Shown here piece by piece: positions 16,220 to 36,983 of a stretch of DNA of 39,502 bases (position 1 is the stretch's first letter; every line of letters starts with the position of its first letter). The notes below the pieces were generated by a model. It made no database searches, was not told the origin of the DNA, and saw only the letters and a list, made by a program, of their open reading frames with translations. The DNA is from a virus: IMG/VR virus record IMGVR_UViG_3300046516_000422, positions 1 to 39,502 of that record; one strand, written 5' to 3'. The translations under genes and the position numbers were made by a program.

Positions 16220-16227
<8 letters not shown>
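13828..16227 (+). CDS. Tail tubular protein B (nozzle)
   Basis: The product is 799 aa. The N-terminus ([51 protein letters not shown]) is the clear signature of phage stabilisation/nozzle proteins of the T7 gp12 type. Later blocks [55 protein letters not shown] and [26 protein letters not shown] are also typical. It forms the tail tip below the adaptor ring and the attachment point of fibres. Length is normal for the family. Confidence 0.92.
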
Positions 16228-17793
<1,566 letters not shown>

Positions 17794-17797
<4 letters not shown>

Positions 17798-18719: not shown

Positions 18720-21416
18720 ATGGCGGCGACAGACGTTATTCCGATCCAGGGCGGCGGCCCGAGCGGGCCGATCCAGGCGGCGCCGCCGGTCGAAGCGCCG
18801 GACATCGCGCCAGGACTCGCCGAGCTCGGCCATGCCGGCATGGGCTACGCCACGCAATTGCGCGACCAGGACAATCGCGACGCGGTCGCCAATGCGCATT
18901 TGCAAGTGTCGCAAGCGGCGGTCGACCTCACCCAATGGCAGCGCGACAAGCAAGACAGTGTCGACGGCGATCCGACCGGCTATACACCGATGGTCGCCGA
19001 CCAGGTTAGCAAGTACGGGCAAGACCTGATCGCGCAACAGACGAACCCCTACGCGCGCGCCTACGCTGCGCGCGCGTTCGGCGCGCTGCAGCGCTCGCAG
19101 CTCGACAGCGCAATCCAATGGCAAGCGCAAGCCAAGGTCAAGTGGCGCGTCGGCCAGGTCGGCCAGATCGCCGACAACTACTCGCAATTTTTGCTCGACA
19201 AACCGCAGGCGTATGACGACGTCACCGCGGGCGTGAGCGCTGCGATCGACGATATGCAGCTCCCGGCGGCGATCCGTGAGCACTTGAAGAGCGCGAGCGA
19301 TATGCAATTGCGCATGGCGGCCGGCCAGGCGATGAATGCGCAAAACCCGCGGCTCATGCAGTCCGTCTACAACAAGATGACGGGCGTTTCGTCGGACGAT
19401 TTACCCGCCAACAACGCGCCGAGCAACGCGCCGGCAGCAGGCGAAACCGGGCCGCCTGGCGCACCGGCGAGCGCGGGCGGGGCAACGCCCCAGGCGGCGC
19501 CGAGCGCGGCGCCTGGCGGCTTCGACGCGGCCTATACGCGCATCCAGCGCATTGAAAAGGGCACCGTCACCAACGACGCCGGCGCCGGCTTGACCGTCAA
19601 CGGCATCAACCAGGCGGCCAATCCCGACCTCGATGTCGCCAACCTCACACCCGACCAGCAGCGCGACGTCTACAAAACGCGCTACTGGGACGCGATCGGC
19701 GCCGACAAGCTGCCGCCGGCGGTCGCGCAATTCGCATTCGACACGTCGGTCAACCAGGGCCCCGGCTTCGCCAAGCAGATGCTCGCCGCGACCGGCGGCG
19801 ATATGCAGCAGATGCTCGCCTACCGGCTGCAGCGCTACCAGCAGACGGCGCAAGACCCGGCGAAGGCGGGCAACCTCGCCGGCTGGACGGCGCGCGCCAC
19901 CAACCTCGCCAGCGAGCTCCAAGGCCAGGCGCCGCAAACGCCGACGCAAATCGCCCAGGCCAACGCGCCCACGATGGTCGACGTCGATCCGGCGATCCCC
20001 GTCGAGACGCTGCCCAATATGCAAGTCGACGGCAATGTCAGCCTGTCGTTTTTGCGCGGCCTGCCGGCGCAAAAAATCATCGAGCTCAAAAACCACGCGG
20101 ACACGCTCGTTCGCAAAGACCAGGCCGACGCGCAGGCGCAATTGCGCGCGCAATATTCGACGGCCGCCGACCAGGCAGCGCACGGCAACATTCCGGCGAT
20201 GCCTGACCCCGCACTTGTCGCGCGCGCCTACGGGCCCGGCAAGGCGGCCGAGCAAACCGCCATGTTTCAAGCGCAGCGCGATATGGGCGTCGCCGCGGCG
20301 GGTGCGGGCACGATGACCATTGCGCAGCTCGACGCGCAATGGAATAAGTTATTGCCCACCACGCTCGACGATCCGCAATGGAAAGAGAAACAAACCAACG
20401 CTGACAACTTCCAAAAGGCACGAAACGCGATCGTCGCCGCGCGCGATAAAGACCCCATGCAGGCGGCCAGCGATCAAGGTATCGGCCAGATCAACGAGCT
20501 CAACACCAACGACCCGGCCAAGTTTGCCGCCGAGCTGCAAAACCGCGACGCGATCGCGCGCACGATGCGCGACAAATACGGCGCGGCCGGCTCATCGCCG
20601 TTTACCAAGCTCGAATCCGATGCGATGGCCGAGAATTTCCATACGTTGACGCCGACGGCCGCGGTCAACTTTATGACGTCGATGCGCGCGAACCTGTCGC
20701 CGGACGTCTACCAGGCGGGCGTCGCCGCATTCGCCAAGGGCGCGCCGACGATCCAGGCGGCCGGCAACTTCGCGGCGATGGGCCCGGTCGCCGCGGCACC
20801 CGACGGCACCAAGGCCAGCCAGGTCGCGCTCACCTTGCTCGAGGGCGATCGCATGTTGCGTCCCGACAAGGCGGCGAAGCAGGAAGGCGCGCGCGTCTAC
20901 ACGCTACCGCCGACGCAGGGTGCGGCCGGCATGGATCAATACATTGGCCAGCAGCTCGGCGAGGATTTCAAATACGACCCCGACACGTTCGCGCGCGCGA
21001 AGCAGGGCGTTTACGCTTATTACGCGGCCGACAGCGCAGCGCACGGCATCTACAACGAGCCCGCCTACGATAGCAAGCGGCTCGATCATGCAATCGATAT
21101 GGTCGTCGGCCAGCGCTCGAAATTCGGCACGACCAACGTTGGAATCGGCAGCCTGTCGGCGAGCTTCGGCGGCCAGGGCGTGCTCATGCCGTGGGGTTAC
21201 AAGGAGGACGATTTTCGCCGCAACCTGCAGCAAAGCTACGTCAACAGCATGGCGGCCGCCGGGCTCGCCAAAACCACGGTCGACGATCCGAGCAAATTGA
21301 CGCCCGTGCGCATCGACGATTACCACTACGGGCTCAAATTGGGCAATACCACGTTGATCGGCAAGCAAGGTTTGCCGGTCATTCTCGACGTCAATCCGAC
21401 ACCGGCGCAGCCGTGA
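18720..21416 (+). CDS. Internal virion protein with GH108-like lysozyme domain
   Basis: The product is 898 aa. Residues about 1-225 are helical, Gln/Ala-rich. Residues about 265-400 (FDAAYTRIQRIEKGTVTNDAGAGLTVNGINQAANPD, ending QFAFDTSVNQGPGFAKQML) follow the glycoside hydrolase 108 pattern with the probable catalytic Glu at about 279. The usual D-P-G-G-x-T-Y-G segment is altered to D-A-G-A-G-L-T-V-N-G, so activity should be tested. The C-terminal 500 aa are helical, like T7 gp15 ejection proteins. It probably digests peptidoglycan locally during DNA entry. No separate endolysin was found in the genome. Confidence 0.85.
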   Translation: MAATDVIPIQGGGPSGPIQAAPPVEAPDIAPGLAELGHAGMGYATQLRDQDNRDAVANAHLQVSQAAVDLTQWQRDKQDSVDGDPTGYTPMVADQVSKYGQDLIAQQTNPYARAYAARAFGALQRSQLDSAIQWQAQAKVKWRVGQVGQIADNYSQFLLDKPQAYDDVTAGVSAAIDDMQLPAAIREHLKSASDMQLRMAAGQAMNAQNPRLMQSVYNKMTGVSSDDLPANNAPSNAPAAGETGPPGAPASAGGATPQAAPSAAPGGFDAAYTRIQRIEKGTVTNDAGAGLTVNGINQAANPDLDVANLTPDQQRDVYKTRYWDAIGADKLPPAVAQFAFDTSVNQGPGFAKQMLAATGGDMQQMLAYRLQRYQQTAQDPAKAGNLAGWTARATNLASELQGQAPQTPTQIAQANAPTMVDVDPAIPVETLPNMQVDGNVSLSFLRGLPAQKIIELKNHADTLVRKDQADAQAQLRAQYSTAADQAAHGNIPAMPDPALVARAYGPGKAAEQTAMFQAQRDMGVAAAGAGTMTIAQLDAQWNKLLPTTLDDPQWKEKQTNADNFQKARNAIVAARDKDPMQAASDQGIGQINELNTNDPAKFAAELQNRDAIARTMRDKYGAAGSSPFTKLESDAMAENFHTLTPTAAVNFMTSMRANLSPDVYQAGVAAFAKGAPTIQAAGNFAAMGPVAAAPDGTKASQVALTLLEGDRMLRPDKAAKQEGARVYTLPPTQGAAGMDQYIGQQLGEDFKYDPDTFARAKQGVYAYYAADSAAHGIYNEPAYDSKRLDHAIDMVVGQRSKFGTTNVGIGSLSASFGGQGVLMPWGYKEDDFRRNLQQSYVNSMAAAGLAKTTVDDPSKLTPVRIDDYHYGLKLGNTTLIGKQGLPVILDVNPTPAQP

Positions 21417-24400
21417 GCGCATTTGATACACCCGACAGCGCAGCGCAACGCTACGACGCATTGACGTCGGCGCCGGCGGCGTCGCCGCTCGATGTCGGCC
21501 CGAGCATCATGGACGGATTCGGCACCGACCTCGCCAAAATCCCCGTCGACATCGTCGCGCACGCGGGGCTCAACGTGATGACGAGCGCAATCACGCCGGC
21601 CAAGCGCGCGATCGGCGCGGCGCTCAACGACCAGGACATCATCGATTCAGCGAACGAGCAACAAGCACGCATCGAGCGCGACTATCAGCAAAACTTTGCG
21701 GCGCCGGCGACGACGGGCATGGCGTCGCAAGTGCTGATCCACGGGCTCGCCGTGCCGCTCGCCGAATGGGGACTCGCCGCGGCCAGCGGCGGCCGATTGA
21801 TCGGCGCCGGTTACCAGGGCTTGACCGCGTACAACACCGCCAAGGTCGGATACGAGGCGCAAGGCGTCGATCCCTTGACCGCGCACTTGCTCGCACTCGG
21901 CCAGGGCGCCGTCGCCGGCGGCACCGCGCTCATTCCCGGCGGCCTGGGTGCGAGCGCCAAGGAAGGCGTCACGCTCGGCATGAATGCGTTGCGCGTGGGC
22001 GGCGCGCAAGCGGGCGTCAACCTCGTCACCGGCGTCGGCACGCGCGCAGCCACGCAAGCCTACCTGGCCAACAACGGCTATTCCGAGCTCGCAGCGCAGG
22101 TGCATCCGTTCGCCGTGGGCGAAGGCGTCACCGATGCCGCGCTCGGCTTCGCGCTGGGTTTCCTGCACACGCGCTACCTGGGGCATCCGCCGACGGTGCG
22201 GCCTGGCGCGCGACCTGGCGAGACGGCGCCACCAGGTGCGGAGCCCACGGCGCCGGGTTTGGAGCCCATTGCACCAGGCGGCGGCGAAGGCATGCCGCCC
22301 GGCGAGCCCGCAGGCGGCAGCGGCAGCGTGCCCGTGTCGTCAACGCTCGATGACGCGATGACGGTCAACAGCGTCGGCCATGCGGGCGTCGACCTCGCAC
22401 CCGGCATGCCGGCCGATGTCGACGCGATCAACGCGCACGCCGACGCCATGCAAGAGTCGACGATGGCCGAGCTCGCGGGCGATCCGGTCAAGGTCGCGGC
22501 GATACTCGAGGGGCAGCATTTCCTGCCCAATCCGCCAGAAGTCGAAGCGGCGCAGGCCGAGCTTCACGCCGACGCGGCCGATGCGATGACCGAGCAGGCG
22601 GCCATGCGCGACGCCGATCGCGCCGCGTCGCTCGAGCTGCCGTCGGCCGAGCCCGCGCCGGCGCCCGAGCGCGCCGCGACGCCGGCGGCCGATGACGAGC
22701 ACATCGCCAGGCTGCCGCCCGAGCAGCAGCAAGTGTTGCGCGATATGTACGAAAGGGCGGCCGACGAAAAGCCTGGGTTTGACGACGCGCTTAGAAGCGT
22801 TGCCGCGAGCGTGCCCGAGGCGCGCGCAAAGCTGTCCGGCCTCAAAGGCACCGAGCGCGCCGTGGCCAAGATCGTCACCGATTACGGCGGCGACGCTGCG
22901 CGCATCAGCGATCTACTGCGCGGCACGGTCGTCACTGACAGCGTGCAAGGCGCCCAGGACGCGCTCGGCGCATTCCTGGCGAAGTACCCCGCCGACGTCA
23001 AGCGCAACCTCTTGGCACCCGACGCCACCGTCGGCGCCGACGGCTACCGCGACATCATGGTCAAGGCCGACGTCAATGGCCACGTTGCCGAGTTTCAAGT
23101 CAGCTTGCCCGAAATGATGGCGGCCAAAAAGCGCATGCACGTCGAGTACGCGGAACGCGAGGCGCTGCGCCGCAAGATCGAGGACGAGGGGCGCCTGCCG
23201 ACCGAAGCCGAGCGCGTGCGAATCGCCGAGCTCAACGCCAAAATGCGCGCCGAGTACGAGCCGGCCTATCAGGAAGCCTTGTCGAGAGACGCGGCGAGCC
23301 GGCGAAATGCCGCCTCTGAAAGCGGCGTACCGTTGCGCACCGCAGAAGCCGAGTCGAATTTGCGCGGCGAGCCGCCGTCGAAGGCGGCGCAATACATCGA
23401 GGGAATGCCAGAGTCCACGACGACGGGCATGCCGTCAACGTCGAAAAACTCGGCGGACTTAGGAAACGAGCCAGGCAAAGCAGCCATTGTTGCAACCTCC
23501 ACCCCGAGTATACCGGAAAACGCGCCCGTTGGGCAAAAAAGCCCAACGCCGGCGAGCAAAGCGGTCGACGATGGGCTTAAAGGCGACAAGGGCGAAGTCA
23601 ACATCGGCGGCCAATATGTGCCCGTCAGGTGGATGGTCGTCGATGCCAAGGCGGTCGAGCCCACGCTCGACAAGGGCGAGACGCAAGCGCGCGATCGCAG
23701 CCGCGCCGCGTCCGCGGCCCAGGTCGCATCGATCGCCGCCAATATCGATTTCAAGCAGCTCGGCGATTCGCCGTTGATGGACTACGGCGCGCCGACACTC
23801 GCATCGGACGGGCGCGTGGTCGGCGGCAATGGTCGCGTGCTCGCGATCAATCGCGCCTACGAAACCGGCAACGGCGAAGCCTACGCGGGCCCCATGCGCC
23901 AGGCGCTCGAGCAATTCGGCATCGATCCCAAGGCGGCCGAAGGCATGCAACGGCCGATGCTGGTGCGCGTGCTGCCCGAAGGCGCCGACGTGCGCCGCGC
24001 GGCGCTGGCGTCCAACGAGGGCGGCGGCGCGCGGATGTCGCCGCTCGAGCAAGCTGGCGTCGACGCCGAGCGCCTGCCGCCGCTGGGCGGCTTTAGCGTG
24101 CCCGAAGATGGCGACCTCAACACGCCGGCCAATCGCGATTTCATCAAAAATTGGATCGGCAATTTCCCCGGCGGCGAGCAAGCGCACCTGGTCGCGGCCG
24201 ACGGCAGCCTGTCGCAGACCGGCCTGCAACGCCTGCGCAATGCGCTCCTGGTCGCCGCCTACGGCGATTCGCCGACGCTCGAGCGCATGATTGAGACGGC
24301 TGACCCTGCCGGCAAAAACCTGTCGAGCGCGCTGACCAAGGCATCGCCGGCCGTGGCGGCGGCGCGCAACGCGATGGAGCTCGGCAACCTCTACAAAGTC

Positions 24401-24877
24401 GATCCGACGCCGTCGATCCTGGCGGCCGTCGAAAAGTTCGTGCAGCTCAAAGAGACGGGGCAGCGCGTCGCCGACTATTTGAAGCAGGGCGAGCTCGGCG
24501 GCCCCGAGCTCGATCCGCAAGCCCGCAAGATGCTCGCCTACTTCGAGCAAAACGCGCGCAGCCCGCGGCGCATGGCCGATATGATCGCGGGCGCGTTCCG
24601 CGAGCTCGAGCGGCGCGGCAATCCCGACGACCTCTTCGGCGCCCAGCCCGAGCCCAGCATCGCCGAGCTCGTCGACGCCGGCATCCAGGCGGCCGATCAT
24701 CCTGGCGTGATGTCCGGCTCATTGTTCGCCGAGCCCGATTCATTCCCCGGCACCGCGGCCGCGCCACGCTCGGAGGCGTCGGCCGCCTATGAGGCGCAAT
24801 CGCGCGTCGAGCAAGCCAAGGCCGACGGCGACCTGTACGGCACCGCGGCCGATTGTTCGCAAAGGGCGCCCGAATGA
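21413..24877 (+). CDS. Large ejection protein with RelA/SpoT-like and DdrB/ParB-like domains
   Basis: The product is 1154 aa from GTG 21413, which overlaps the previous stop; a longer frame to 21191 is rejected. The N-terminal third is Ala/Gly-rich with hydrophobic helices suited to membrane passage. Residues about 451-590 (FDDALRSVAAS, ISDLLRGTVVTDS, GADGYRDIMVKADVNGHVAEFQVSLPEM, then MHVEYAE) follow the RelA/SpoT nucleotidyltransferase pattern. Residues about 729-1076 (GGQYVPVRWMVV, DGRVVGGNGRVLAINRAYETG, ALASNEGGGARMSPLEQA, PDDLFG) match the DdrB-like ParB-superfamily domain of phage polyvalent proteins. It likely enters the host with the DNA and may act against restriction or alter alarmone levels; that is inference. 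Confidence 0.82.
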   Translation: MSAFDTPDSAAQRYDALTSAPAASPLDVGPSIMDGFGTDLAKIPVDIVAHAGLNVMTSAITPAKRAIGAALNDQDIIDSANEQQARIERDYQQNFAAPATTGMASQVLIHGLAVPLAEWGLAAASGGRLIGAGYQGLTAYNTAKVGYEAQGVDPLTAHLLALGQGAVAGGTALIPGGLGASAKEGVTLGMNALRVGGAQAGVNLVTGVGTRAATQAYLANNGYSELAAQVHPFAVGEGVTDAALGFALGFLHTRYLGHPPTVRPGARPGETAPPGAEPTAPGLEPIAPGGGEGMPPGEPAGGSGSVPVSSTLDDAMTVNSVGHAGVDLAPGMPADVDAINAHADAMQESTMAELAGDPVKVAAILEGQHFLPNPPEVEAAQAELHADAADAMTEQAAMRDADRAASLELPSAEPAPAPERAATPAADDEHIARLPPEQQQVLRDMYERAADEKPGFDDALRSVAASVPEARAKLSGLKGTERAVAKIVTDYGGDAARISDLLRGTVVTDSVQGAQDALGAFLAKYPADVKRNLLAPDATVGADGYRDIMVKADVNGHVAEFQVSLPEMMAAKKRMHVEYAEREALRRKIEDEGRLPTEAERVRIAELNAKMRAEYEPAYQEALSRDAASRRNAASESGVPLRTAEAESNLRGEPPSKAAQYIEGMPESTTTGMPSTSKNSADLGNEPGKAAIVATSTPSIPENAPVGQKSPTPASKAVDDGLKGDKGEVNIGGQYVPVRWMVVDAKAVEPTLDKGETQARDRSRAASAAQVASIAANIDFKQLGDSPLMDYGAPTLASDGRVVGGNGRVLAINRAYETGNGEAYAGPMRQALEQFGIDPKAAEGMQRPMLVRVLPEGADVRRAALASNEGGGARMSPLEQAGVDAERLPPLGGFSVPEDGDLNTPANRDFIKNWIGNFPGGEQAHLVAADGSLSQTGLQRLRNALLVAAYGDSPTLERMIETADPAGKNLSSALTKASPAVAAARNAMELGNLYKVDPTPSILAAVEKFVQLKETGQRVADYLKQGELGGPELDPQARKMLAYFEQNARSPRRMADMIAGAFRELERRGNPDDLFGAQPEPSIAELVDAGIQAADHPGVMSGSLFAEPDSFPGTAAAPRSEASAAYEAQSRVEQAKADGDLYGTAADCSQRAPE
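23503..23548. promoter_or_regulatory. Operator-like palindrome and TATACT inside the ejection gene
   Basis: CGTTGGGC (23527-23534) and GCCCAACG (23541-23548) form an 8-bp inverted repeat around A6, containing GGGCAAAAAAGCCC. A CCCGAGTATA decamer at 23503-23512 equals the one at 35539-35548, beside an operator. Read leftward, TTGCCC (about 23531-23536) and TATACT (23507-23512) are 18 bp apart, a possible antisense promoter. It lies in the linker between the two enzymatic domains. It could equally be chance or a hairpin. Confidence 0.35.
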
Positions 24878-27453
24878 AAGAAGTCTGCATCGCCGCCGTC
24901 TCCAAAGCCGCCGGCCGGGTTATCACGCTCGACGAGCAACAGCACATCGAGTCGCGCGTCAAGGCGGCGCTGCGCGTGCTGGCCATGCAAAACCCTGACG
25001 GCTTTCGCGGCAAGTCGGCCGACGTGCGCTTGATGGAAGCCGCCAAGCTCGCCGCCAAGTGGCTTGACCAGGATGCGCTCGACGAGCAACGGCGCCTCAC
25101 CACGGCGACCGCCGTGCATGACCGCGTCGCGCGCCAGGTGGCACAGATGGAAGCCGCCGGCCACGATCCGCAAGACGCGATGGATCGGCTTCTATACAAC
25201 AACGCCGACAACCGTTCGACGGTGCAATCGCTCGAGTCACGCATCGCCGCCACCAACGAGGACTACCAGCGCCAGCTTATGCACACGATGGAAGCCGTCA
25301 GCCCCAAGTTTTTCGGGCTCATGGCGGACATCAAGGGATCGGGCGATTTCGTGCGCGAGCTGTTCGGCACCGATACGCGAAACCCGATCGCGAAGGAGGC
25401 GGCGAAGGAATGGCGCAGCCTGGCGAGCTCGATGGCCAAGCACTTCGAGGACGCGGGCGGCGTGCTGCACCGGCTCGCCGATTGGCGCTATCCGCAGATG
25501 CACGACCAGGTAAAGGTTTTTAACGCCGGCCTGCAAAAGTGGCTGGCCGACGTCGTCGACAAGATCGACCGCACGCGCTACACCAATGAAAACGGGCTCT
25601 TGATGAATGACGTGGAAATCCGCCACGCGCTCGCCGAAGCCTGGGATTCAATCAGCACCGGCGGCGCCAACGACATCGAGCCTGGCAAGCGCGAGGGCGT
25701 GTCGAAGGTCGCCAATCGCGAGCTCGCGCACCGATACCTGCATTTCAAGGACGCGCAGGGCTATCTCGACTACCAAACGCAATACGGCCAGCGCGATGTC
25801 TGGTCGACGCTCACCGGCCACGTTCAGCACATGGCGCGCTCGATCGGATTGATGGAACACTTCGGGCCCAACGCCGATAAGGAATTCGCCTATTGGAATG
25901 ATCGCAGCGTCAAAGAGGCGCGCGCCAACAAGCCCAACGCGATCGCCGTCGGCAACAAGCTCGAGAACGCCTATCGCCAGCTCGCCGGTTACAGCGAAGG
26001 CGTCGCCAATTCGGCGGTCGCCAAGGCGTTCGACGACCTGCGCAACGTCAACGTTTTTGGCAAGCTCGGCAGCGCGACGATTGCGTCCATTCCCGACGTC
26101 GCGACCGTGGCCATGACGGCGCGCTATAACAAGCTGTCGGCGGTCGCGGCCCTGTGGAATGGGCTACGCCTCCTAAACCCGCTCGCCGGCGAATCGCGCC
26201 GCCAGCTCGAGCGCGCCGGGCTCATGGCCAACAGCGCGATCCAGAGCATGCGCCGCTTTCAGGTCGACAGCGTCGGCCAATCCTGGTCGGCGCGCATGGC
26301 CAATGCCGTGCTCATGGCGTCGGGTTTGAACCATTGGACGGACGGCATGCGCGCGGGCTATGTCGCCGTGCATGCGCACGCGCTTGCGCACCTGACGCAC
26401 ACCTATGATCGGCTCGCCGACATCGGGCCCGAAGATGCGCGCGTGCTCAAAGGCAAGGGCGTCACGGATACAGACTTCGCCGTGTGGAAATTGGCGGGCG
26501 GCGAGCGAACCAACTTCGGCAGCTTGTTGACGCCCGACAGCATCTACCGCGTGCCCGATGCCGCACTCGTCGAGCTCGCGCGCCAGGCGAGCGACGCGGC
26601 GCGACCGCCCGACGCGCTGCCCGGCACCGGGCCGACGATTACGCCGATGCAGCTTCGGCGCGAGGCGGCAATCCGGCTCCTGGGCGTGACGATGTCAGAG
26701 GCGAATATGGCCGTCTCCGAGCCTGGCATGCGCGAGCGCGCGCAGATGTCGAAGATGTTTACCTACCTGCCGCGCGGCGACCTCGCCGGCGAGCTCACGC
26801 GCTCATTCTGGCAATTCAAGACATTCTCATGGGGCTTCGTGCAAAAGCATATGGTGCAACGCGGCCTGGCGGGTGCTGACACCGTCGGCGGGCGCGTGCG
26901 CTACATCGTGCCGCTGATCGTGGGCACGACCATCATGGGCGCGCTCAAAGTCGAGCTCGACGACCTGTTACGCGGGCGCGACGCGCGGCCGATGTACGGC
27001 GAGAACGGCAAGATTCTCACGAAAAATTGGATACAGGCATTTTTGGCCGGCGGCGGCCTGGGCATGTACGGCGATTTCCTGGGCGCCGCGGCGACCGAAG
27101 ATAGCAAGAGCGCGCTGGCGTCCCTCATGGGCCCGACCGCGTCGACGATCTACGACGCGGCCAATCTTGCGGTCGGCTCGAGCGTGAAAGCGCTCAACGA
27201 CGAGCCGCAAAAGCCGTTGCAAAAAACGCTGCAGCTCGCCAAGGGAATGATCCCGGCGGCCAATCTTTGGTACACCAAGGCGGCGACCGACCACCTGATT
27301 TTCAACTGGCTGCAGGAACAGATTAACCCCGGCTACCTGGCGCGCTCGGAAGCACGCGCGCGCACCAATTACGGTACCAATTATTGGTGGAGTCCGCGCC
27401 AGGCGTCGCCGGCGCGCGGGCCTAACCTCACGTCGATCGCGGGCAGACAATGA
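24874..27453 (+). CDS. Large internal core/ejection protein
   Basis: The product is 859 aa, start at the ATGA overlap 24874-24877. The N-terminus CIAAVSKAAGRVITLDEQQHIESRVKAAL is helical. The C-terminal 250 residues carry LPRGDLAGELTRSFWQFKTFSWGF, YIVPLIVGTTIMGALKVELDDLLRGRDARPM, WIQAFLAGGGLGMYGDFLG and MIPAANLWYTKAATDHLIFNWLQEQINPGYLARSEARARTNYGTNYWWSPRQ, the conserved tail of podovirus internal core proteins. It stands in the T7 gp16 position and probably spans the host inner membrane during DNA entry. No transglycosylase motif is visible; the lysozyme is two genes upstream. Confidence 0.85.
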   Translation: MKEVCIAAVSKAAGRVITLDEQQHIESRVKAALRVLAMQNPDGFRGKSADVRLMEAAKLAAKWLDQDALDEQRRLTTATAVHDRVARQVAQMEAAGHDPQDAMDRLLYNNADNRSTVQSLESRIAATNEDYQRQLMHTMEAVSPKFFGLMADIKGSGDFVRELFGTDTRNPIAKEAAKEWRSLASSMAKHFEDAGGVLHRLADWRYPQMHDQVKVFNAGLQKWLADVVDKIDRTRYTNENGLLMNDVEIRHALAEAWDSISTGGANDIEPGKREGVSKVANRELAHRYLHFKDAQGYLDYQTQYGQRDVWSTLTGHVQHMARSIGLMEHFGPNADKEFAYWNDRSVKEARANKPNAIAVGNKLENAYRQLAGYSEGVANSAVAKAFDDLRNVNVFGKLGSATIASIPDVATVAMTARYNKLSAVAALWNGLRLLNPLAGESRRQLERAGLMANSAIQSMRRFQVDSVGQSWSARMANAVLMASGLNHWTDGMRAGYVAVHAHALAHLTHTYDRLADIGPEDARVLKGKGVTDTDFAVWKLAGGERTNFGSLLTPDSIYRVPDAALVELARQASDAARPPDALPGTGPTITPMQLRREAAIRLLGVTMSEANMAVSEPGMRERAQMSKMFTYLPRGDLAGELTRSFWQFKTFSWGFVQKHMVQRGLAGADTVGGRVRYIVPLIVGTTIMGALKVELDDLLRGRDARPMYGENGKILTKNWIQAFLAGGGLGMYGDFLGAAATEDSKSALASLMGPTASTIYDAANLAVGSSVKALNDEPQKPLQKTLQLAKGMIPAANLWYTKAATDHLIFNWLQEQINPGYLARSEARARTNYGTNYWWSPRQASPARGPNLTSIAGRQ

Positions 27454-31570: not shown

Positions 31571-32638
31571 ATGGGAACCATTCGGAAGGTCGAGGGCAAG
31601 CTGGGCGACCGTTGGCGCGTGGAGCTTTGCGTCGGCGGCGTAAGGGATTCTGACACGTTCGCCAATCCAGGCGACGCCAAGCAGTGGATGCGCGAGCGCG
31701 AGGCCGAGCTCGGCCGCGGCGCCAAGGTCGCGCTGCGGCGCACCCTGGCCGACGCGCTCGAGCGCTACGCGGCCGAAGTCTCGCCCCAGCATGAGGGCGC
31801 GCGCTGGGAACAAATCAGGCTGGCCAAGATCGGGCGCGAGTTTGACGCGGTCGCCAAGCCATTGCGCGACCTGACCGCCGAAGATTTCAACACCTGGCGC
31901 GACAAGCGGCTGCGCGAAGTGTCCGAGTCATCCGTGGCGCGCGAGTTTGGCCTGCTTCGCACCGTGCTTAAACATGCCTGCAGCCAATGGCGCTACTTGA
32001 CGCGCGAAAAGCTGGCCGAAATCAAAGAGTCGAAAAAGCCCAAGGGCGGCCAGGCGCGCACGACGCGCATGCCGGACAAGGCGCGCGTCGCGATCCTTGA
32101 CGCGCTCGGCTATTCAGAGGATGAGCCTGTGCGCAGCGTCGGGCAGCGCGTTGGGCTCACGCTCCTAATCGCGCTCGAGACGGCCATGCGCACCGGCGAG
32201 CTGTGCAAGATCACGCGCGAGCGGCTACACCTGGCCGAGCGCTATGTTCACCTGCCGAAAACCAAAAACGGCGACGCGCGCGACGTGCCGCTATCGGCCG
32301 AAGCCGTGCGCCTGTTCAAGCGGGCGCCTGGCCTGGCGCCGGTCGAGGCGCCGGCCGAGCCGGAAAAGCGCGGGCGCGGTCGGCCGCCGAAGTCAGCCGC
32401 CGCAATGGGCACCGTGCTCGGCATCAAGGCGAGCCAGGTCGACGCCAACTATCGCAAGGCGCGCGACACGACCGAGCACACCGACATTCACTTCCACGAT
32501 TCACGCGCCGAAGCGCTGACACGGCTCGCCAAAAAGGTCGACGTGCTCACGCTCGCGCGGATCGTCGGCCACCGCGACCCGCGTTCGCTGATGATTTACT
32601 ACCGGCCGACCGTTGCCGAGATAGCTGACCGGCTCTGA
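31571..32638 (+). CDS. int: Tyrosine-family site-specific integrase
   Basis: The product is 355 aa with AGAGGGGAAC before the ATG. Arg207 in ALETAMRTGELCKI, Lys230/232 in LPKTKNG, His309 and Arg312 in HFHDSR, His334 in VGHRDPRS and Tyr343 in MIYYRP complete the catalytic set. The N-terminal half is a core-binding/SAM-like helical domain (YAAEVSPQHEGARWEQIRLAKI, SSVAREFGLLRTVLKHA). Between the Lys and His motifs there is an insertion of about 25 residues with KRGRGRPPKS, AT-hook-like and unusual here. It catalyses phage integration and excision. Its 3' end overlaps the leftward HTH gene by 92 nt. Confidence 0.95.
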   Translation: MGTIRKVEGKLGDRWRVELCVGGVRDSDTFANPGDAKQWMREREAELGRGAKVALRRTLADALERYAAEVSPQHEGARWEQIRLAKIGREFDAVAKPLRDLTAEDFNTWRDKRLREVSESSVAREFGLLRTVLKHACSQWRYLTREKLAEIKESKKPKGGQARTTRMPDKARVAILDALGYSEDEPVRSVGQRVGLTLLIALETAMRTGELCKITRERLHLAERYVHLPKTKNGDARDVPLSAEAVRLFKRAPGLAPVEAPAEPEKRGRGRPPKSAAAMGTVLGIKASQVDANYRKARDTTEHTDIHFHDSRAEALTRLAKKVDVLTLARIVGHRDPRSLMIYYRPTVAEIADRL

Positions 32639-32807
32639 CGCGCTCGATCCAGGCTTCGATTTCATCCTCGCGCCAGCGAGGGTGACCCGTGCCGCCAGCG
32701 CGAAACGGCACGGGGAAGCCCGGCTCGCGCGCCCAACGCTCGAGCACTTGCCGCGACGCGACGCCGAGCTTGTCGGCGACGCTGGCGGCGCTTATCCAAC
32801 GAGACAT
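32547..32807 (-). CDS. Excisionase-like HTH protein
   Basis: The product is 86 aa. Residues about 3-57 (RWISAASVADKLGVASRQVLERWAREPGFPVPFRAGGTGHPRWREDEIEAWIERVRAG) are a MerR/HTH_17-type winged helix, as in phage excisionases. The basic tail is read from the antisense strand of the last 92 nt of the integrase gene. A Shine-Dalgarno GGGAT precedes the ATG. It is the last gene of the long leftward operon, so it is expressed with repressor-controlled genes and could direct excision on induction. AlpA-like transcriptional activators look similar. Confidence 0.78.
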   Translation of the reverse strand: MSRWISAASVADKLGVASRQVLERWAREPGFPVPFRAGGTGHPRWREDEIEAWIERVRAGQLSRQRSAGSKSSANAGRGGRRSARA

Positions 32808-32826
32808 AGTCGATCCCTTCCCGCGC

Positions 32827-33192
32827 CTACCCGATCATCCAGCCAGGCGGGCGCGGCAGGGCGCTCGCTGTCGGCCGCCACAGGTGCAGGCAGTACGGAT
32901 GCAAATTGATATGGTCGCGCGACGGCACATGAAACTGTACGGCGGTTTCGTCGTCGGCGTAAAACGCGCGCTTGACCTGTTCCATTTCAAACCAATTCGG
33001 GCACCGATTTTTGCGCGATACGCTGACGTGCTCCCATCCCTCGCCGCATGACGCGACAATATGCAGAGTCGCCGCGTCGATGCACGACGGCAGATTGAAT
33101 ACCCCGCACGTCTCGTCGCCGACCGTGCCGTAAAGCTCGAGCACGCGCGGGCCCGCGTCGCGATACAGGTCGAGCTCGCGCAGGTTTCGCAT
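32827..33192 (-). CDS. DUF7694-like conserved phage protein
   Basis: The product is 121 aa. RELDLYRD, then YGTVGDETCGVFNLPSCIDAATLHIVASCGEGWEHVSVSRKNRCPNWFEMEQVKRAFYADDETAVQFHVP and DHINLHPYCLHLWRPTASALPRPP are a strongly conserved pattern known from many phages, which I believe is DUF7694. The conserved His, Cys, Asp, Asn and Trp residues (SRxxRCPNWxEM, NLHPYCLHLW) suggest an enzyme or metal-binding fold, but no activity is known. Its ATG overlaps the stop of the upstream gene by one base. Confidence 0.78.
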   Translation of the reverse strand: MRNLRELDLYRDAGPRVLELYGTVGDETCGVFNLPSCIDAATLHIVASCGEGWEHVSVSRKNRCPNWFEMEQVKRAFYADDETAVQFHVPSRDHINLHPYCLHLWRPTASALPRPPGWMIG

Positions 33193-33437
33193 TATTCGGC
33201 CTTGGCGCTCGGCGGCAGCAAGGCGCGCTTGCGGTCGATTGCGCTGCGCAAGTCATACCGTTGCCAAACGAGCGCGTTCGCGTGGCCGTTATTGCGGGCG
33301 CGAATGCCGGCGCCGTGCGCGTCGATCCAGTCTAAGCGCTCGCTGTCCTTGCTGCGATCGCCGGGCGGCGCGTACTCGACACCGTTGACGACGATGCGAA
33401 TGGGCTCCCAGGTTTCCGTTGTGATTTTGAGAATCAT
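33192..33437 (-). CDS. Small hypothetical protein in the leftward operon
   Basis: The product is 81 aa from ATG 33437 (a longer open frame upstream is not supported). It reads ILKITTETWEPIRIVVNGVEYAPPGDRSKDSERLDWIDAHGAGIRARNNGHANALVWQRYDLRSAIDRKRALL. The block SERLDWIDAHGAGI and the charged C-terminus look like a small alpha/beta phage protein with SERLDWL-type motif that I recall from other phage accessory proteins. Function unknown. Confidence 0.65.
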   Translation of the reverse strand: MILKITTETWEPIRIVVNGVEYAPPGDRSKDSERLDWIDAHGAGIRARNNGHANALVWQRYDLRSAIDRKRALLPPSAKAE

Positions 33438-33622
33438 TCGCGCGGCCTTTGCTCGTCGGCGCGTCGCGCGGCGTCGATGAGCGCAATGATCGCGTCGGCG
33501 TGCAGGCGCACATAGGCGCCCAGGCGAATCAACGGGCCCAGGCGCGGCAGCAATGTCGGCGCGTAGGCGTCGTCCACCAGGCGCTCGAGCTCGCGCGCGT
33601 CGAGACGATCGCCGCCGCTCAC
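33434..33622 (-). CDS. Small hypothetical protein (62 aa)
   Basis: GTG start at 33622 within a GTGAGC junction that overlaps the stop of the upstream gene. The 62-aa product reads GGDRLDARELERLVDDAYAPTLLPRLGPLIRLGAYVRLHADAIIALIDAARRADEQRP, two amphipathic helices with no catalytic motif. It overlaps the next ATG. The longer frame to 33781 is not likely because it would run through a better-supported membrane protein gene. Confidence 0.6.
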   Translation of the reverse strand: MSGGDRLDARELERLVDDAYAPTLLPRLGPLIRLGAYVRLHADAIIALIDAARRADEQRPRE

Positions 33623-33798
33623 AGGAACCGGCCCAGCAGCACGCCGACGGCGCCCACGATCGCCAGCAACAGCAGGAATGCCGCCAGTGCGCCGTCGTCC
33701 CTGGTGTGGCCGGCATTGAGATCGATTAACCACGCGAGCCCAATGCCGGCGACCAGGATTAACAGCGGCGTCAGCCACCATTGCGGCGAGTCGATCAC
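33619..33798 (-). CDS. Small two-TM membrane protein, lysis candidate
   Basis: A 59-aa frame with GTG start at 33798 overlapping the stop of the upstream gene (TCAC/GTGA) and a stop overlapping the next GTG at 33622. It encodes two hydrophobic segments, WWLTPLLILVAGIGLAWLI and ALAAFLLLLAIVGAVGVLLG, joined by a charged loop NAGHTRDDG. Two-TM topology and size fit a holin or an inner-membrane accessory protein, but there is no adjacent endolysin. Overlaps at both ends support it as a real gene. Confidence 0.65.
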   Translation of the reverse strand: MIDSPQWWLTPLLILVAGIGLAWLIDLNAGHTRDDGALAAFLLLLAIVGAVGVLLGRFL

Positions 33799-34253
33799 GC
33801 GCGACCGCTCACCGTCACGCTGAAATTCTGCGCCTTCTCGTTCGGATGCTTGCCGGTTTGCGTGTTGGCGGCCGAGACGTACAGCGTTTGGCCTGCGCCG
33901 ACGTGGTACTCCATGTGCGAGCCGTTCATTTCGACGTGCATGCCGGGCGCGTTAGCGTCGACCACGCAATTCAGGGTACCGCCAGGCGATTGGTAGGCGT
34001 ACTGCGCCGCCGGATAGACGCCGTTGGGCGGCGGGCGTTTTTCCGGTTCGGCCGAGTATTCGGGCGTCATAGAAGCCCATGCTGTGCGCGGCGTCCGGTC
34101 GGTATCGTCGCCCGATTGGAAATAGACGACCTGAAAGGCCGAAATACCGCTCGGCACTTCGATCGGGATTACGGCCAAGTCGCCGTCGGCGATCTTGACG
34201 CTGTGGGGCGTGCCGTCCATGACAGTAATGACGTTTGCGGTTTTTGTGGCCAT
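33795..34253 (-). CDS. Hypothetical beta-rich protein
   Basis: The product is 152 aa, ATG at 34253 with GAGG upstream. It contains NVITVMDGTPHSVKIADGDLAVIPIEVPSGISAFQVVYFQSGDDTD, TPEYSAEPEKRPPPNG and VDANAPGMHVEMNGSHMEYHVGAGQTLYVSAANTQTG, an all-beta pattern with an exposed Pro-rich loop. I do not recognise the family. It lies in the leftward accessory operon, where the 44-bp gap to the next gene (34254-34297) is the largest. Confidence 0.65.
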   Translation of the reverse strand: MATKTANVITVMDGTPHSVKIADGDLAVIPIEVPSGISAFQVVYFQSGDDTDRTPRTAWASMTPEYSAEPEKRPPPNGVYPAAQYAYQSPGGTLNCVVDANAPGMHVEMNGSHMEYHVGAGQTLYVSAANTQTGKHPNEKAQNFSVTVSGRA

Positions 34254-34297
34254 GTCGTTTCATCCTCTGCATTCCTACGTTGCGGGCGCCGGGCGCA

Positions 34298-34519
34298 TTA
34301 TGCGACGCGCTCGACGTGGTAACGGCGCTCCAAGTCGGAGAGCCATTTTTCCTGTTTAGGCGAGAGCTCGCGGCGCGCGCCGAGCCCGTTTAGGAATTGG
34401 CGCTCGGCTTCGGAGAGCTCGCGCGGAATGCCGCGGCCGGCAGCGCGCGCATCCTGGCGGCGCGTCTGTGCCGCGCGCTGCACGCCGGCGACGCGCACCT
34501 GGATCGCGGGCGCGCTCAC
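34298..34519 (-). CDS. Small basic hypothetical protein
   Basis: The product is 73 aa, GTG start 34519 in a GTGAGCGC junction overlapping the upstream stop. It reads SAPAIQVRVAGVQRAAQTRRQDARAAGRGIPRELSEAERQFLNGLGARRELSPKQEKWLSDLERRYHVERVA. The LSPKQxKWLxxLE(x)RY segment resembles a short motif near the C-terminus of small phage proteins that I recall as uncharacterised. The basic N-terminal half could bind nucleic acid. Confidence 0.62.
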   Translation of the reverse strand: MSAPAIQVRVAGVQRAAQTRRQDARAAGRGIPRELSEAERQFLNGLGARRELSPKQEKWLSDLERRYHVERVA

Positions 34520-34788
34520 AGATAGCCCGCCTGGTGCGCGACGCTGACCGCGTAGGCGATGCCGGCGGCGATCGTCACGACGACGACGTCTACAGTGCGC
34601 TCGCGCCAGGTCATGCGCGCGCCTGGGCGCCGCGAGACAAAGCCGAAGGATGCGAAGAGCACGACCGTCGGCCAGAGCTCGCGGGCGCGCTCGGCGAGCG
34701 AGTCGCCGCGGGCGCGCTCGGAAAGGCGATAGGCCCGACGGCGTTGCGCGCGTCGGGCCTGGGCTCGAGTCATGGGACGCGGGCGCAT
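34516..34788 (-). CDS. Small basic protein with membrane segments
   Basis: The product is 90 aa. The N-terminal ~35 aa are Arg/Ala-rich (TRAQARRAQRRRAYRLSERARGD). Then hydrophobic stretches TVVLFASFGFVS and VDVVVVTIAAGIAYAVSVAHQ suggest one strong and one weaker membrane segment. The stop overlaps the next GTG. It may be a membrane-anchored regulator or lysis accessory protein; no family is recognised. In the 32-bp gap upstream (34789-34820) there is only a 10-codon frame. Confidence 0.58.
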   Translation of the reverse strand: MRPRPMTRAQARRAQRRRAYRLSERARGDSLAERARELWPTVVLFASFGFVSRRPGARMTWRERTVDVVVVTIAAGIAYAVSVAHQAGYL

Positions 34789-34820
34789 GCGTCACCCGTC
34801 CGCGGCGGCGCGGCGCGCGC

Positions 34821-35030
34821 TCATGCCGGCACCATTGCATCGGCGAGCGAGTCCATGCGGGCGAGCCCGTTGTGCGGAATGAAACGGTAGAACCTCGAGC
34901 CGTCGGCGTTCGTGAGCGCGTATTGATCGGGGAGATAATTGCCGGGCGTCGCGATCTTGGCCAGCACGCGCAGGCGCAGAAAGCCCACGCGCACAACCTC
35001 GCCGACGTTCCAATCCTGGCGGGCGCTCAT
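34821..35030 (-). CDS. Small hypothetical protein (69 aa)
   Basis: ATG 35030 in an ATGAGCGCC junction overlapping the upstream stop. It reads SARQDWNVGEVVRVGFLRLRVLAKIATPGNYLPDQYALTNADGSRFYRFIPHNGLARMDSLADAMVPA, a beta-rich fold that resembles small phage proteins with 'VGxVVxVGFLxLxV' strands; I recall such proteins as uncharacterised. The frame could extend to 35060 but the overlap favours 35030. Confidence 0.64.
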   Translation of the reverse strand: MSARQDWNVGEVVRVGFLRLRVLAKIATPGNYLPDQYALTNADGSRFYRFIPHNGLARMDSLADAMVPA

Positions 35031-35305
35031 GCTGCCCGCCTGGCGAGGATCGCCGCGCATCTGCTACAGGTCACGACCGTCGCGCGGCTCGGCATGGCGG
35101 CAAATTGGCCGCTCGTGACGCCGCAACACGGGCGGGCAGCGAATAGGCGCAGGATGCCCTTTTCGCGGCGGTATTCGGTTTCGATAAGGTGCGTGCGCGC
35201 GCCGGCATGCCGGCCGCGATTGTTGTGTGCCGCGTGGCCGATTTCCTCGCGCACTTCGAGGACGATGCCTGACCAGAAAAGGACGCGAGTAAACGGGGCG
35301 CTCAC
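35027..35305 (-). CDS. Small protein with Cys-rich C-terminus
   Basis: The product is 92 aa, GTG 35305 in a GTGAGCGCC junction overlapping the previous stop. It begins SAPFTRVLFWSGIVLEVREEIGHAAHN and ends RPCCGVTSGQFAAMPSRATVVTCSRCAAILARRA. The C-terminal CC and CSRC cysteines could form a small zinc-ribbon (C-C ... C-x-x-C). Function unknown; such small Zn proteins are common in phage regulatory operons. Confidence 0.64.
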   Translation of the reverse strand: MSAPFTRVLFWSGIVLEVREEIGHAAHNNRGRHAGARTHLIETEYRREKGILRLFAARPCCGVTSGQFAAMPSRATVVTCSRCAAILARRAA

Positions 35306-35508
35306 GCTGCCCCCTTATCGAGCTCGTCCTGGCAGAGCTGCGCGTGGCGAAGGGCGTCGGCCTTGGCCTCGAGGAAGTGCTCGAGTCCGGCGTGGCCGAT
35401 CGGGAAGGCTTCGGCCTGGGCGTCGAGCTCGTCGGCGCAGGCGTAATAGGCGTCGCGCGATTCGACCAACATCGCGCGGCGGGCGGCGCTCATTACATGG
35501 GAAGGCAT
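35302..35508 (-). CDS. First gene of the long leftward operon
   Basis: The product is 68 aa from ATG 35508, with CGGAGAAAAA upstream; the longer frame to 35571 would run through the promoter and is rejected. It reads PSHVMSAARRAMLVESRDAYYACADELDAQAEAFPIGHAGLEHFLEAKADALRHAQLCQDELDKG, two or three charged helices. Function unknown. It stands immediately downstream of a strong sigma70-like promoter with a repressor operator (35543-35571). Confidence 0.7.
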   Translation of the reverse strand: MPSHVMSAARRAMLVESRDAYYACADELDAQAEAFPIGHAGLEHFLEAKADALRHAQLCQDELDKGAA

Positions 35509-35542
35509 TTTTTCTCCGAGTGATGGAACGACAGACAGCCCG

Positions 35543-35604
35543 AGTATATGGGCAAAAATGCCCAGGTGCAACCCCTTTCGGGCGCGACCTGGGCAAAGAA
35601 GCCC
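35543..35604 (-). promoter_or_regulatory. Leftward promoter with operator in the spacer, plus second operator
   Basis: Read leftward, TTGCAC (35566-35571) and TATACT (35543-35548) are 17 bp apart, close to sigma70 consensus. The spacer holds an exact operator, GGGCAAAAATGCCC (35550-35563). A one-mismatch copy, GGGCAAAGAAGCCC, is at 35591-35604, 41 bp upstream. Repressor bound in the spacer would block the polymerase. This drives the operon from 35508 down to 32547. The 112-bp gap 35509-35620 holds no gene. Confidence 0.82.
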
Positions 35605-35620
35605 ACCAGGCGACGAGCGG

Positions 35621-35920
35621 TTACTCGGCGCGCGCCAGGGCGATCGCCGCGCGCACGGCGGCCAGCGCGCCGACGTTGTCGCGGTAGGTGCGATTGGGCA
35701 TTGCGTGCATGGATGCGACGAGCTCGAGGGCCGCCAGCAGCGCGGGCGCCGCGGCGATGAGGGCGGCGTTGGCGTCGTCGACGCGCGAGACGTCGGCGAG
35801 CGTGCAAATCTCGAGCGGGCCGCATTTCTCGGAATCGGTCGGGGCGATGATGCGGCGCGGAACGCCGGCGGCGATCGGCACCGATTTCCACGGGCCCGGC
35901 GTATGGCGGCCGGCGCTCAT
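35621..35920 (-). CDS. Small HTPGPW-type phage protein
   Basis: The product is 99 aa, ATG 35920 in an ATGAGCGCC junction overlapping the upstream stop. It starts AGRHTPGPWKSVPIAAG and contains VSRVDDANAALIAAAPALLAALELVASMHAMPNR. The HTPGPW start and the ANxxLIAAAPxLLxALE helix are shared by many small proteins in phage accessory regions, usually uncharacterised. It is the last gene of the operon started at 36836. Confidence 0.75.
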   Translation of the reverse strand: MSAGRHTPGPWKSVPIAAGVPRRIIAPTDSEKCGPLEICTLADVSRVDDANAALIAAAPALLAALELVASMHAMPNRTYRDNVGALAAVRAAIALARAE

Positions 35921-36243
35921 GCGCCACCCCGCCAGTTAGGAAACTCGCCGGCCGGAAATTCCGGGTACTCGCGCGTCTCGGCCTTGGGGAACGGCTCGTC
36001 GTCCAGCACTGGGCGATAGTCGTCGTAGGCGGCGCCGGTAACGAAGCGCGGGCTGCAGTGCCCGTGATACTCGTTGCCGATGTGATGACGGTGGACTCCA
36101 AAGAAGGTGCGACCCTCGCCGCCTTCGCGCTCGACCAGGTCGAACGAGCCGTTATCGCGGATGTCGCTGACCGTGAACCAGCCGGCCGCGTTCGCCATAT
36201 CGCCGGAATAGTGGACGCGGCTGCCGATGACCAGGGCGCTCAT
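35917..36243 (-). CDS. Hypothetical protein in the second leftward operon
   Basis: The product is 108 aa, ATG 36243 in an ATGAGCGCC junction overlapping the upstream stop; the longer frame to 36432 is rejected. It reads SALVIGSRVHYSGDMANAAGWFTVSDIRDNGSFDLVEREGGEGRTFFGVHRHHIGNEYHGHCSPRFVTG with a charged Pro/Glu tail. The beta-rich GSRVHYSGDMAN and HRHHIG blocks suggest a small barrel such as an SH3-like domain, common in phage nucleic-acid-binding proteins. Not recognised further. Confidence 0.66.
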   Translation of the reverse strand: MSALVIGSRVHYSGDMANAAGWFTVSDIRDNGSFDLVEREGGEGRTFFGVHRHHIGNEYHGHCSPRFVTGAAYDDYRPVLDDEPFPKAETREYPEFPAGEFPNWRGGA

Positions 36244-36836
36244 GCGTCCCCCACGGCTTCGGCGTCGAGCTGCGGGCCCTGGCCGGTACGATCCGAGCCC
36301 AGGAAGATGACCGACGCGGCGCTCGGCGAGTGCTTGGGCTCGAGTCTGTCGGACACCTTGCCGAGCCTTTCGTGGATGACGCCTTGCCACGACCAGCGAT
36401 GATCGCCGGCGCCCATCGGGCCGTGGTTCCACAGCTCGCCCTTTCTGAAGGCGGCGAGAGTCGGCACGGCGAGGCTATCGGACTTGATGTTGCCGGCGTA
36501 TTTGCGGCAGACGGCGGCGATGGCGCGCTCGATCGCGGCGTCGCTGTTGGAGCGATGGCAGAAGATGAAATCGGCGCCAAAGCGGACGCGCTCGCCGGCG
36601 AGCATGTTGTAGCAAGAGCCCTTGTAATCGATCATGCCGTCGAAGTAGGCGCCTTTGAAAACGCCGGCGACGGCTTCGACCTGCTTGGCGTTCGGGCCGT
36701 CGACCCAGGCGACATCGATCGACGCGCCGCCCGAGTAGACCGACGAGCGCACCGAAAACTTAACGCCTGGGAAGGACTCGCCGAGAGCCTTGCGAACCAG
36801 CTTCGCGGTTTCGGCGCAGGACAGGTATTTGGACAT
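36240..36836 (-). CDS. LPD29-like (large polyvalent protein-associated) protein
   Basis: The product is 198 aa, ATG 36836 with GGAGCG upstream. SKYLSCAETAKLVRKALGESFPGVKFSVRSSVYSGGASIDVAWVDGPNAKQVEAVAGVFKGAYFDGMIDYKGSCYNM matches the domain associated with phage and mobile-element polyvalent proteins (LPD29, as I recall), found in DNA-handling and anti-defence contexts. Here it is a stand-alone protein with a C-terminal extension rich in Asp/Gly. It is the first gene after the promoter at 36872-36900, so it is repressor-controlled. An anti-defence or DNA-processing role is inference. Confidence 0.72.
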   Translation of the reverse strand: MSKYLSCAETAKLVRKALGESFPGVKFSVRSSVYSGGASIDVAWVDGPNAKQVEAVAGVFKGAYFDGMIDYKGSCYNMLAGERVRFGADFIFCHRSNSDAAIERAIAAVCRKYAGNIKSDSLAVPTLAAFRKGELWNHGPMGAGDHRWSWQGVIHERLGKVSDRLEPKHSPSAASVIFLGSDRTGQGPQLDAEAVGDA

Positions 36837-36871
36837 TTTCGCTCCGTGGTGGTGGAAGAACAGACACCCCG

Positions 36872-36922
36872 ATTATATGGGCAAATTTGCCCAGGCGCCA
36901 GCACTATCGGGCAAATTTGCCC
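36872..36922 (-). promoter_or_regulatory. Leftward promoter with operator in the spacer, plus upstream operator
   Basis: Read leftward, a perfect -10 TATAAT (36872-36877) is preceded by 17 bp and a weak -35, TGGCGC (36895-36900). The spacer holds operator GGGCAAATTTGCCC (36879-36892). An identical operator is at 36909-36922, 30 bp upstream. The segment from about 36856 to 36900 closely matches 35525-35571, so the two promoter-operators look duplicated. It feeds the operon 36836-35621. The gap 36837-36983 holds no gene. Confidence 0.82.
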
Positions 36923-36983
36923 GCTGTCCGACGAACGGCAACCAGGCGCGCAACCACGGATTGCGCTATGGCGAGGGCTTACT

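Follow-up and report, generated by a model that had tools for sequence, protein, structure and literature searches.

Introduction

Can a phage send a RelA/SpoT-homolog (RSH) enzyme into its host together with its DNA, and what would such an enzyme do there? This question is raised by a stretch of viral DNA of 39,502 nucleotides (IMG/VR record IMGVR_UViG_3300046516_000422, hereafter the window), in which a RelA/SpoT-like domain had been noticed inside a presumed virion ejection protein. Internal virion proteins are ejected by epsilon15, and proteins like T7 gp16 differ in length and in the domains they contain, although the passages of that source concerned with them do not treat the RSH-carrying protein described here (PMC8954989). 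RelA/SpoT domains in phage polyvalent proteins and in MuF fusions, along with the idea of injection, were put forward in 2017 (PMC5512222). MuF-Apk2 toxins of prophages make (p)ppApp, including pppApp, and inhibit or kill E. coli, those tested being accompanied by two immunity genes (PMC12226406). Experimental work covers Apk2 toxins and exported synthetases (PMC12226406, PMC11699363, PMC12691689). The original prediction knew of no experimental report for a podovirus ejection protein; none for a podovirus ejectosome protein was indeed among the matches listed, but the 2017 prediction (PMC5512222) and the MuF-Apk2 toxins (PMC12226406) came before it. Among the matches listed in the literature search, there was no report of an RSH domain in an epsilon15- or T7-type ejection protein, and the words “ejection,” “internal virion protein” and “epsilon15” have no occurrence in the main text of PMC5512222. 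The novel element is the carrier, as the domain sits in an ejectosome protein for which no immunity gene could be recognised.

A RelA/SpoT-like domain identified by sequence

The two motifs that had first drawn attention lie in frame in the gene at 21413..24877 (Table 1). DLLRGTVVTDS corresponds to residues 500–510 of the RSH-carrying protein and GYRDIMVKADVNGHVAEFQ to residues 544–562, after which comes a Lys/His/Glu helix. The presence of a RelA/SpoT-like domain at this site is confirmed. The span originally assigned to it (residues 452–591) proved to be the domain core, within a wider folded unit of about residues 428–644.

When residues 430–616 were compared by phmmer with all PDB chain sequences, a single match appeared up to E 10, namely Tas1 (6ox6, E 3.6e-6). 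A four-row profile reached Tas1/Apk1 (E 2.7e-11), SaEAS (8vx3, E 0.0034) and S. aureus Rel (7oiw, E 0.015). Its other 25 PDB matches all have E values of at least 0.078; three are E. coli RelA chains (E 0.48–0.58), and most of the remainder are cytochrome b562 fusions, plainly due to chance. A control profile from which the window and L001, its nearest relative, had been left out was run on the 570 six-frame segments of the window, and this ORF was the sole match (E 1.2e-40). The same profile gave the real domain 139.4 bits, vs. 5.8 bits for the best of 1000 shuffles. The six-frame control and the shuffles rule out a chance motif.

The Pfam model RelA_SpoT (PF04607) fails to match the window, even with the threshold at E 1. 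Of the 21 records searched, the window among them, 8 score above its cut-off; the window therefore falls outside the range of this model. The sole Pfam match over the domain, IF-2 (E 0.015), is below cut-off and contradicted by the fold. Two proteins of uncultured phages, 1129 and 1078 aa long (46% and 44% identity), lead the matches in the viral model library, and one of them is named “DdrB-like”; three further entries already bear the name RelA/SpoT, and one is named Tas1.

Predicted structure and catalytic residues

The AlphaFold2 model of the domain, computed from an 11-row alignment (A2), has a mean pLDDT of 90.2 and a pTM of 0.81. Foldseek placed Tas1 first among PDB structures (E 7.7e-8), followed by SaEAS and RelP. 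VIA-align, a second look at Foldseek's matches whose ranking covers the families listed there, gave Z scores of 15.5 for Tas1 (rmsd 2.7 over 162 residues, 26% identity), 14.0 for SaEAS, 13.9 for RelP and 12.5 for CapRel. RSH proteins fill the first 29 of the 50 rows shown (Z 15.5 to 10.0) and the first non-RSH fold scores 8.3, while the FaRel2 toxin (Z 7.5) stands under several unrelated folds. Structure prediction and superposition, proposed at the outset as a check, therefore returned the RSH synthetase fold, with Tas1 as the best match, and no different fold.

Nor were the acidic residues found to be lost: Asp500 and Glu560 are intact in the window and invariant in all 11 rows. The rows of A2 are 26–66% identical to the window, with a mean column identity of 41%, and the full set of invariant positions is K478, K486, Y491, D500, R503, P536, G544, Y545, G556, E560, and Y579. 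In the printed alignment with S. aureus Rel, D500 falls on the syn2 Asp and E560 on the syn4 Glu. In RelSeq numbering these are D264 and E323, and syn1 and syn3 are likewise placed by RelSeq positions.

Apk enzymes are marked by R-x-T in syn2 and G-x-N in syn3, and RSH enzymes by A-V-R and S-x-H, respectively (PMC12226406). The window has RGT, the Apk-like R-x-T; all 11 rows share its R and 8 of them its T. The corresponding syn3 positions read D-I-M, which is neither the Apk nor the RSH form. GYRD occupies syn3 in nine rows, and the two Helicobacter rows have GYTG-x-H. Since GYRDIM fits neither signature, the acceptor is not readable from the sequence. Taken together, alignment and model support the prediction of an RSH synthetase with intact catalytic residues.

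The carrier protein and its position in the phage

The features of the locus are collected in Table 1.

Table 1. Coordinates of the RSH-carrying gene, its domains and motifs, and other genes of the window.
Feature	Position	Strand	Remarks
Ejection-type polyvalent protein gene, 1154 aa	21413..24877	+	GTG over previous stop; phiV10 p19 / epsilon15 gp16 position
N-terminal epsilon15 gp16-type domain, residues 56–412	21578..22648	+	phrog_1145 E 8e-14
RSH synthetase domain (predicted), residues ~428–644	22694..23344	+	Sequence searches and predicted fold
syn1-like stretch K478...R482...K486	22844..22870	+	Both Lys invariant in 11/11 rows; R482 in 9/11
syn2 DLLRGT, Asp500 and Arg503	22910..22927	+	D and R invariant in 11/11; R-x-T as in Apk2 syn2
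syn3 GYRDIM, Tyr545	23042..23059	+	GY invariant in 11/11; D547 in 9/11; differs from RSH SxH and Apk GxN
syn4 EFQVS, Glu560	23090..23104	+	E invariant in 11/11; Q562 in 10/11
Disordered linker (predicted), ~90 residues, RSH to ParB	23345..23611	+	pLDDT <50, model residues 221–311; similar text in L007
DdrB-like ParB domain, residues 734–853	23612..23971	+	PF18763 E 8.3e-27; six-frame match
Upstream internal virion protein, glycosyl hydrolase 108 domain	18720..21416	+	PF05838 E 1.8e-11; phrog_992 head protein E 4e-47
Downstream epsilon15 gp17-type pilot protein	24853..27453	+	phrog_684 E 6e-231; 36% identity to phiV10 p20
Tyrosine integrase	31571..32638	+	PF00589 E 1.3e-18

The open frame enclosing the gene extends over 21191..24877, and within it the gene is best taken to start with a GTG at 21413 that overlaps the upstream stop codon (TGA). 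On the other side, the gp17-type gene probably starts with an ATG at 24874 that overlaps the TGA stop of the RSH gene. The gene order is a gp15-like gene (phrog_992), the RSH-carrying gene with its phrog_1145 N-terminus, and a gp17-like gene. In phiV10 the corresponding position is held by p19, annotated as similar to epsilon15 gp16 and matched by phrog_1145 over its full length; the similarity of the gp17-type neighbour to phiV10 p20 was found among the 30 listed of 111 matching phage records. Synteny and N-terminal homology thus identify the RSH carrier as an epsilon15 gp16-type ejection protein. The original prediction had spoken of the T7 gp15/gp16 position, which is right as to the ejection-protein context, the epsilon15/phiV10 gp16 position being the more exact description. 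Because of this position and the gp16-type N-terminus, delivery of the protein into the host is likely. The phage itself is a podovirus, probably a temperate one, as its integrase gene suggests.

The RSH carrier is also a polyvalent protein, large and multidomain, with PF18763 and RSH domains and encoded amid structural genes. In Pfam, ddrB-ParB is its sole clear domain and nothing passes the cut-off over the RSH region; in PHROGs, its C-terminal part matches families other than phrog_1145. Proteins in the gp16 position differ widely. Neither phiV10 p19 (600 aa) nor that of HB2107-3I (640 aa) has a Pfam domain over cut-off, and BcepC6B gp16 has an SLT transglycosylase domain, while in Piluca gp47 ddrB-ParB is accompanied by an SLT match below cut-off. 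The 2480-aa protein of ctype202, which also has ddrB-ParB, was assigned to the position by gene order only, with no phrog_1145 match. Domain scans of phiV10 p19, BcepC6B gp16 and Piluca gp47 showed no RSH domain. We read the gp16 position as a slot for exchangeable enzymes. The N-terminal 429 residues of the window protein had no match in 50,697 phage records, five of which were matched by the RSH domain itself.

In the A4 model the RSH domain is free-standing and followed by about 90 disordered residues, a predicted arrangement that suits a tethered payload. Two other roles were considered for this linker. As an auto-inhibitory tail it finds no place in the A4 model, which has it disordered and undocked (a weak test); as a DNA-level site it is disfavoured by the comparison of the window with L007, in which shared codons and nucleotide identity are no higher than in the domain. 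The linker text (TGMPST and its surroundings) is recognisable in two deeply diverged phages, at 23345–23611 in the window and at L007:6607–6735.

Relatives, conservation and exchange

L007, a 31-kb IMG/VR contig, carries an RSH domain 43% identical to that of the window in A2. It lies within a 697-aa protein with a phrog_1145 N-terminus (E 1.4e-28), flanked by phrog_992 and phrog_684 genes, in a record without ddrB-ParB. At the DNA level its 12.6-kb locus shares a single 177-base match with the window (blastn, E 1e-5). The RSH domain is therefore conserved in the corresponding protein of a second, deeply diverged phage.

The nearest relative, L001, is comparable to about residue 906. In 40-residue bins, amino acid identity is 85–100% outside residues 441–680 and 55–72% inside. 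NG86 dS values are 0.26 for residues 1–430, 0.73 for the RSH part (441–616), 0.50 for residues 617–690, and 0.08 for residues 700–906, with 0.35 for the upstream gene. The ratio dN/dS is 0.41 in the RSH part, vs. 0.21 in the first part, 0.13 in the ParB part and 0.29 in the upstream gene, so that in this one pair the domain is under less constraint than its surroundings. Since dS rises together with dN, a module swap by recombination is favoured over decay, and the comparison, a single sequence pair, points to an exchanged functional cassette.

A second IMG/VR scan, made with A2, added no new locus and recovered 19 of the 20 known from A1, and searches with the flanks returned only two contigs, both already found. 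Among plasmids there was a single weak match, in Photobacterium. L025, a contig from an Acetobacteraceae MAG, could not be accepted as a full-length relative: the match extends over query residues 1–89, and by eye the composition of the contig shifts after about position 4680. For these reasons A3 and A4 include the first part of L025 alone. The change of sequence character near 4680 is either a real break or an assembly join. In the same contig a DdrB-ParB-like stretch, seen by eye, precedes the RSH domain, which is the reverse order. At E 1e-6, matches were found in 3 of 397 genomes of the L025 family and in 6 of 385 of the class, the L025 genome being counted in both; five loci from this survey were examined, as ORF lists only.

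Hydrolases and immunity genes

Some RSH domains are linked to the phage portal, being fused to its C-terminus in L008, encoded next to the portal gene in L016 and PHB04, and one gene further away in L014. L008:3237–5528 encodes a portal protein (PF06381) with a C-terminal RSH domain, a toxin-like enzyme on the portal itself, and there is an HD_4 hydrolase match 2.8 kb downstream. In Bordetella phage PHB04 (L004:7071–9336), the RSH gene comes after the portal gene and is followed by one short gene, an HD_4 gene and then a serine/threonine phosphatase gene; the arrangement of RSH and HD_4 looks like a toxin-immunity unit. Helicobacter prophage BK070046 (L003:3990–9416) has a giant RSH ORF with a PBECR1 nuclease domain and a sub-cut-off PBECR2 match, this ORF being unannotated there. 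The H. labacensis genome (L026, G020) has three RSH matches.

The HD_4 alarmone hydrolase (PF13328) was found once each in 12 of 21 RSH-domain records (window included). This set omits L005, L006 and L027–L030 (contigs of L001 and L002), L025 and L026, as well as L021 and L022, taken as records of L004 and L003; judged by length and match values it includes many near-copies, in two groups (PHB04 with L017–L020, L023 and L024; L009–L014). All 12 HD_4 genes lie on the same strand as the RSH domain, 488–2809 bases downstream, and fall into three sequence groups. Such genes are as expected beside alarmone makers, although this support comes from relatives in which the RSH domain has carriers other than the ejection type.

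By contrast, neither PF13328 nor PF01966, the families of Aph1-like HD hydrolases, has a match in the 39,502 bases of the window or in the records of L001, L002 and L007. The window and L007 carry most weight here because the L001 and L002 records are partial. PF13328 is likewise without a match in the Helicobacter record. The nine records without HD_4 comprise two short fragments (G005, G007), two partial records (G001, G002) and five longer ones (G000, G003, G011, G012, W01), of which G011 and G012 are portal-linked or large, and W01 ends about 1 kb after the RSH domain. Nor does there seem to be room for a small gene directly beside the RSH gene, since both neighbours overlap it, although an immunity gene of the IapK/Tis1 type may lie elsewhere in the phage. 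After the integrase, at 32689–37208, stand five ORFs with no match in Pfam (E 0.01) or PHROGs (E 0.001), among which an immunity gene could hide. We propose that many portal-linked RSH versions are toxin-immunity units, and that the ejection-type versions are not.

Comparison with known systems

The closest solved relative, the T6SS (p)ppApp synthetase Apk1/Tas1 (6ox6), resembles the window domain in its fold, in R-x-T at syn2, and in the K...R...K of syn1. It differs at syn3 (GYSGVN vs. GYRDIM) and has a dedicated immunity protein, as the title of 6ox6 states, whereas none is recognised in the window. Apk1/Tas1 is delivered by PAAR/T6SS (PMC12226406), while the window protein is ejection-type by gene context. 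The Apk2 MuF toxins of prophages are likewise phage structural proteins with an Apk-type RSH domain (PMC12226406), but there the domain is C-terminal on a MuF carrier and followed by IapK and Aph1, whereas in the window it is internal to an ejectosome-type protein. No Pfam MuF match was obtained in this protein at E 1, and its N-terminus is phrog_1145.

The systems of PMC5512222 also have RSH domains in large multidomain phage proteins, which Helicobacter prophages pair with DdrB-ParB; that paper names spirochaete and epsilon-proteobacterial prophages and MuF fusions, whereas the window carrier is epsilon15 gp16-type. With epsilon15 gp16 and phiV10 p19 the window protein has in common the position and the N-terminal phrog_1145 domain, although p19 has no Pfam domain over cut-off and showed no RSH in the domain scans. 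T4 Alt offers an analogy, as an enzyme injected with phage DNA that changes the host at once (PMC5512222), but it is an ADP-ribosyltransferase, of a different family and chemistry.

A proposed host-acting payload and its alternatives

What, then, might the domain do? The best explanation, which we consider moderately probable, is that a gp16-type ejection protein bears an RSH synthetase as a host-acting enzymatic payload. Its basis is the predicted fold, the catalytic residues, the gene context, the conservation in L007 and the cassette-like divergence; from there we infer late expression, packaging, ejection, catalysis, product, and benefit. The HD_4 genes of relatives, the dN/dS of 0.41 in the domain against L001 (one pair) and the pppApp made by Apk2 phage toxins also count in its favour. 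The RSH domain would be carried on a flexible tether ahead of the DdrB-like ParB domain, in a protein presumably made late, packed in the head and brought into the new host with the DNA. There it would most likely move pyrophosphate from ATP to the 3′-OH of an adenosine (Apk-like) or guanosine nucleotide, and the alarmone burst at entry may slow or redirect host metabolism. The product of an active enzyme would have about an even chance of being (p)ppApp, with (p)ppGpp or a tRNA modification next. A full Apk-like ATP drain would harm the phage itself, hence low copy number, slow activity or another acceptor would be needed. The internal position of the domain counts against this explanation, as tested Apk toxins have theirs at the C-terminus; the syn3 mismatch, the PF04607 miss and the failure to find an immunity gene also weigh against it.

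It is possible, if rather doubtful, that the proteins with GYRD form a distinct RSH subfamily, an ejectosome-delivered nucleotide pyrophosphokinase in an exchangeable gp16 slot, without an immunity gene, flooding the host with alarmone in the first minutes and possibly using a new acceptor.

An active enzyme would mean that the phage sends a ready-made alarmone synthetase into the host along with its DNA, so that host metabolism would first change without any phage transcription. The gp16 position would then also look like a slot in which envelope-breaching, nuclease-like and nucleotide-signalling domains are swapped. About 12 molecules of P22 gp16 are injected (PMC8402733), and SaEAS performs ~1e5 turnovers per minute, said to be comparable to Apk1 (PMC12691689). 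As a rough estimate, 12 copies at ~1e5 per minute and two ATP each would turn over ~2.4 million ATP per minute, which suggests that such a dose is feasible. This amount is about the ATP content of one cell.

A MuF-Apk2-like polymorphic toxin, with which particles would kill or arrest non-lysogenic competitors through (p)ppApp and ATP loss while an unrecognised immunity gene shields lysogens, is unlikely. The closest solved relative is admittedly a toxin, Tas1/Apk1, the divergence from L001 is bounded like a cassette (55–72% amino acid identity inside, dS 0.73), and portal-linked relatives do have HD_4 genes. However, no HD_4 or HD gene occurs in the window, L001, L002, and L007 records, and the overlapping neighbours leave no space for an adjoining small gene. 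As no immunity gene is recognisable, a dose-limited host-takeover effector fits better than a competitor-killing toxin.

It is quite improbable that the RSH fold is catalytically silent and has been retained in the ejectosome for structural reasons, to bind nucleotides or to make contacts. The odd syn3 and the failure to find an immunity gene would agree with such a role, but the proposed catalytic positions are invariant in 11/11 rows down to 26% identity, at a mean column identity of only 41%, and the predicted free-standing domain with its disordered linker makes no fixed structural role evident. Least probable is a tRNA-CCA pyrophosphokinase (CapRel/FaRel2-like) that halts host translation at entry: the fold family is shared with CapRel (Z 12.5) and the unusual syn3 is compatible with other acceptors, yet the nucleotide users Tas1 (15.5) and SaEAS (14.0) outrank CapRel, FaRel2 reaches only 7.5, and halted translation would stop the phage too. 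The enzymatic payload of an ejection protein thus remains our preferred reading.

Another feature of the window

At 16220–17797, between the tail tube and internal virion protein genes, lies a collagen-like ORF of tail-fibre type, which as called overlaps the next ORF by about 190 bases.
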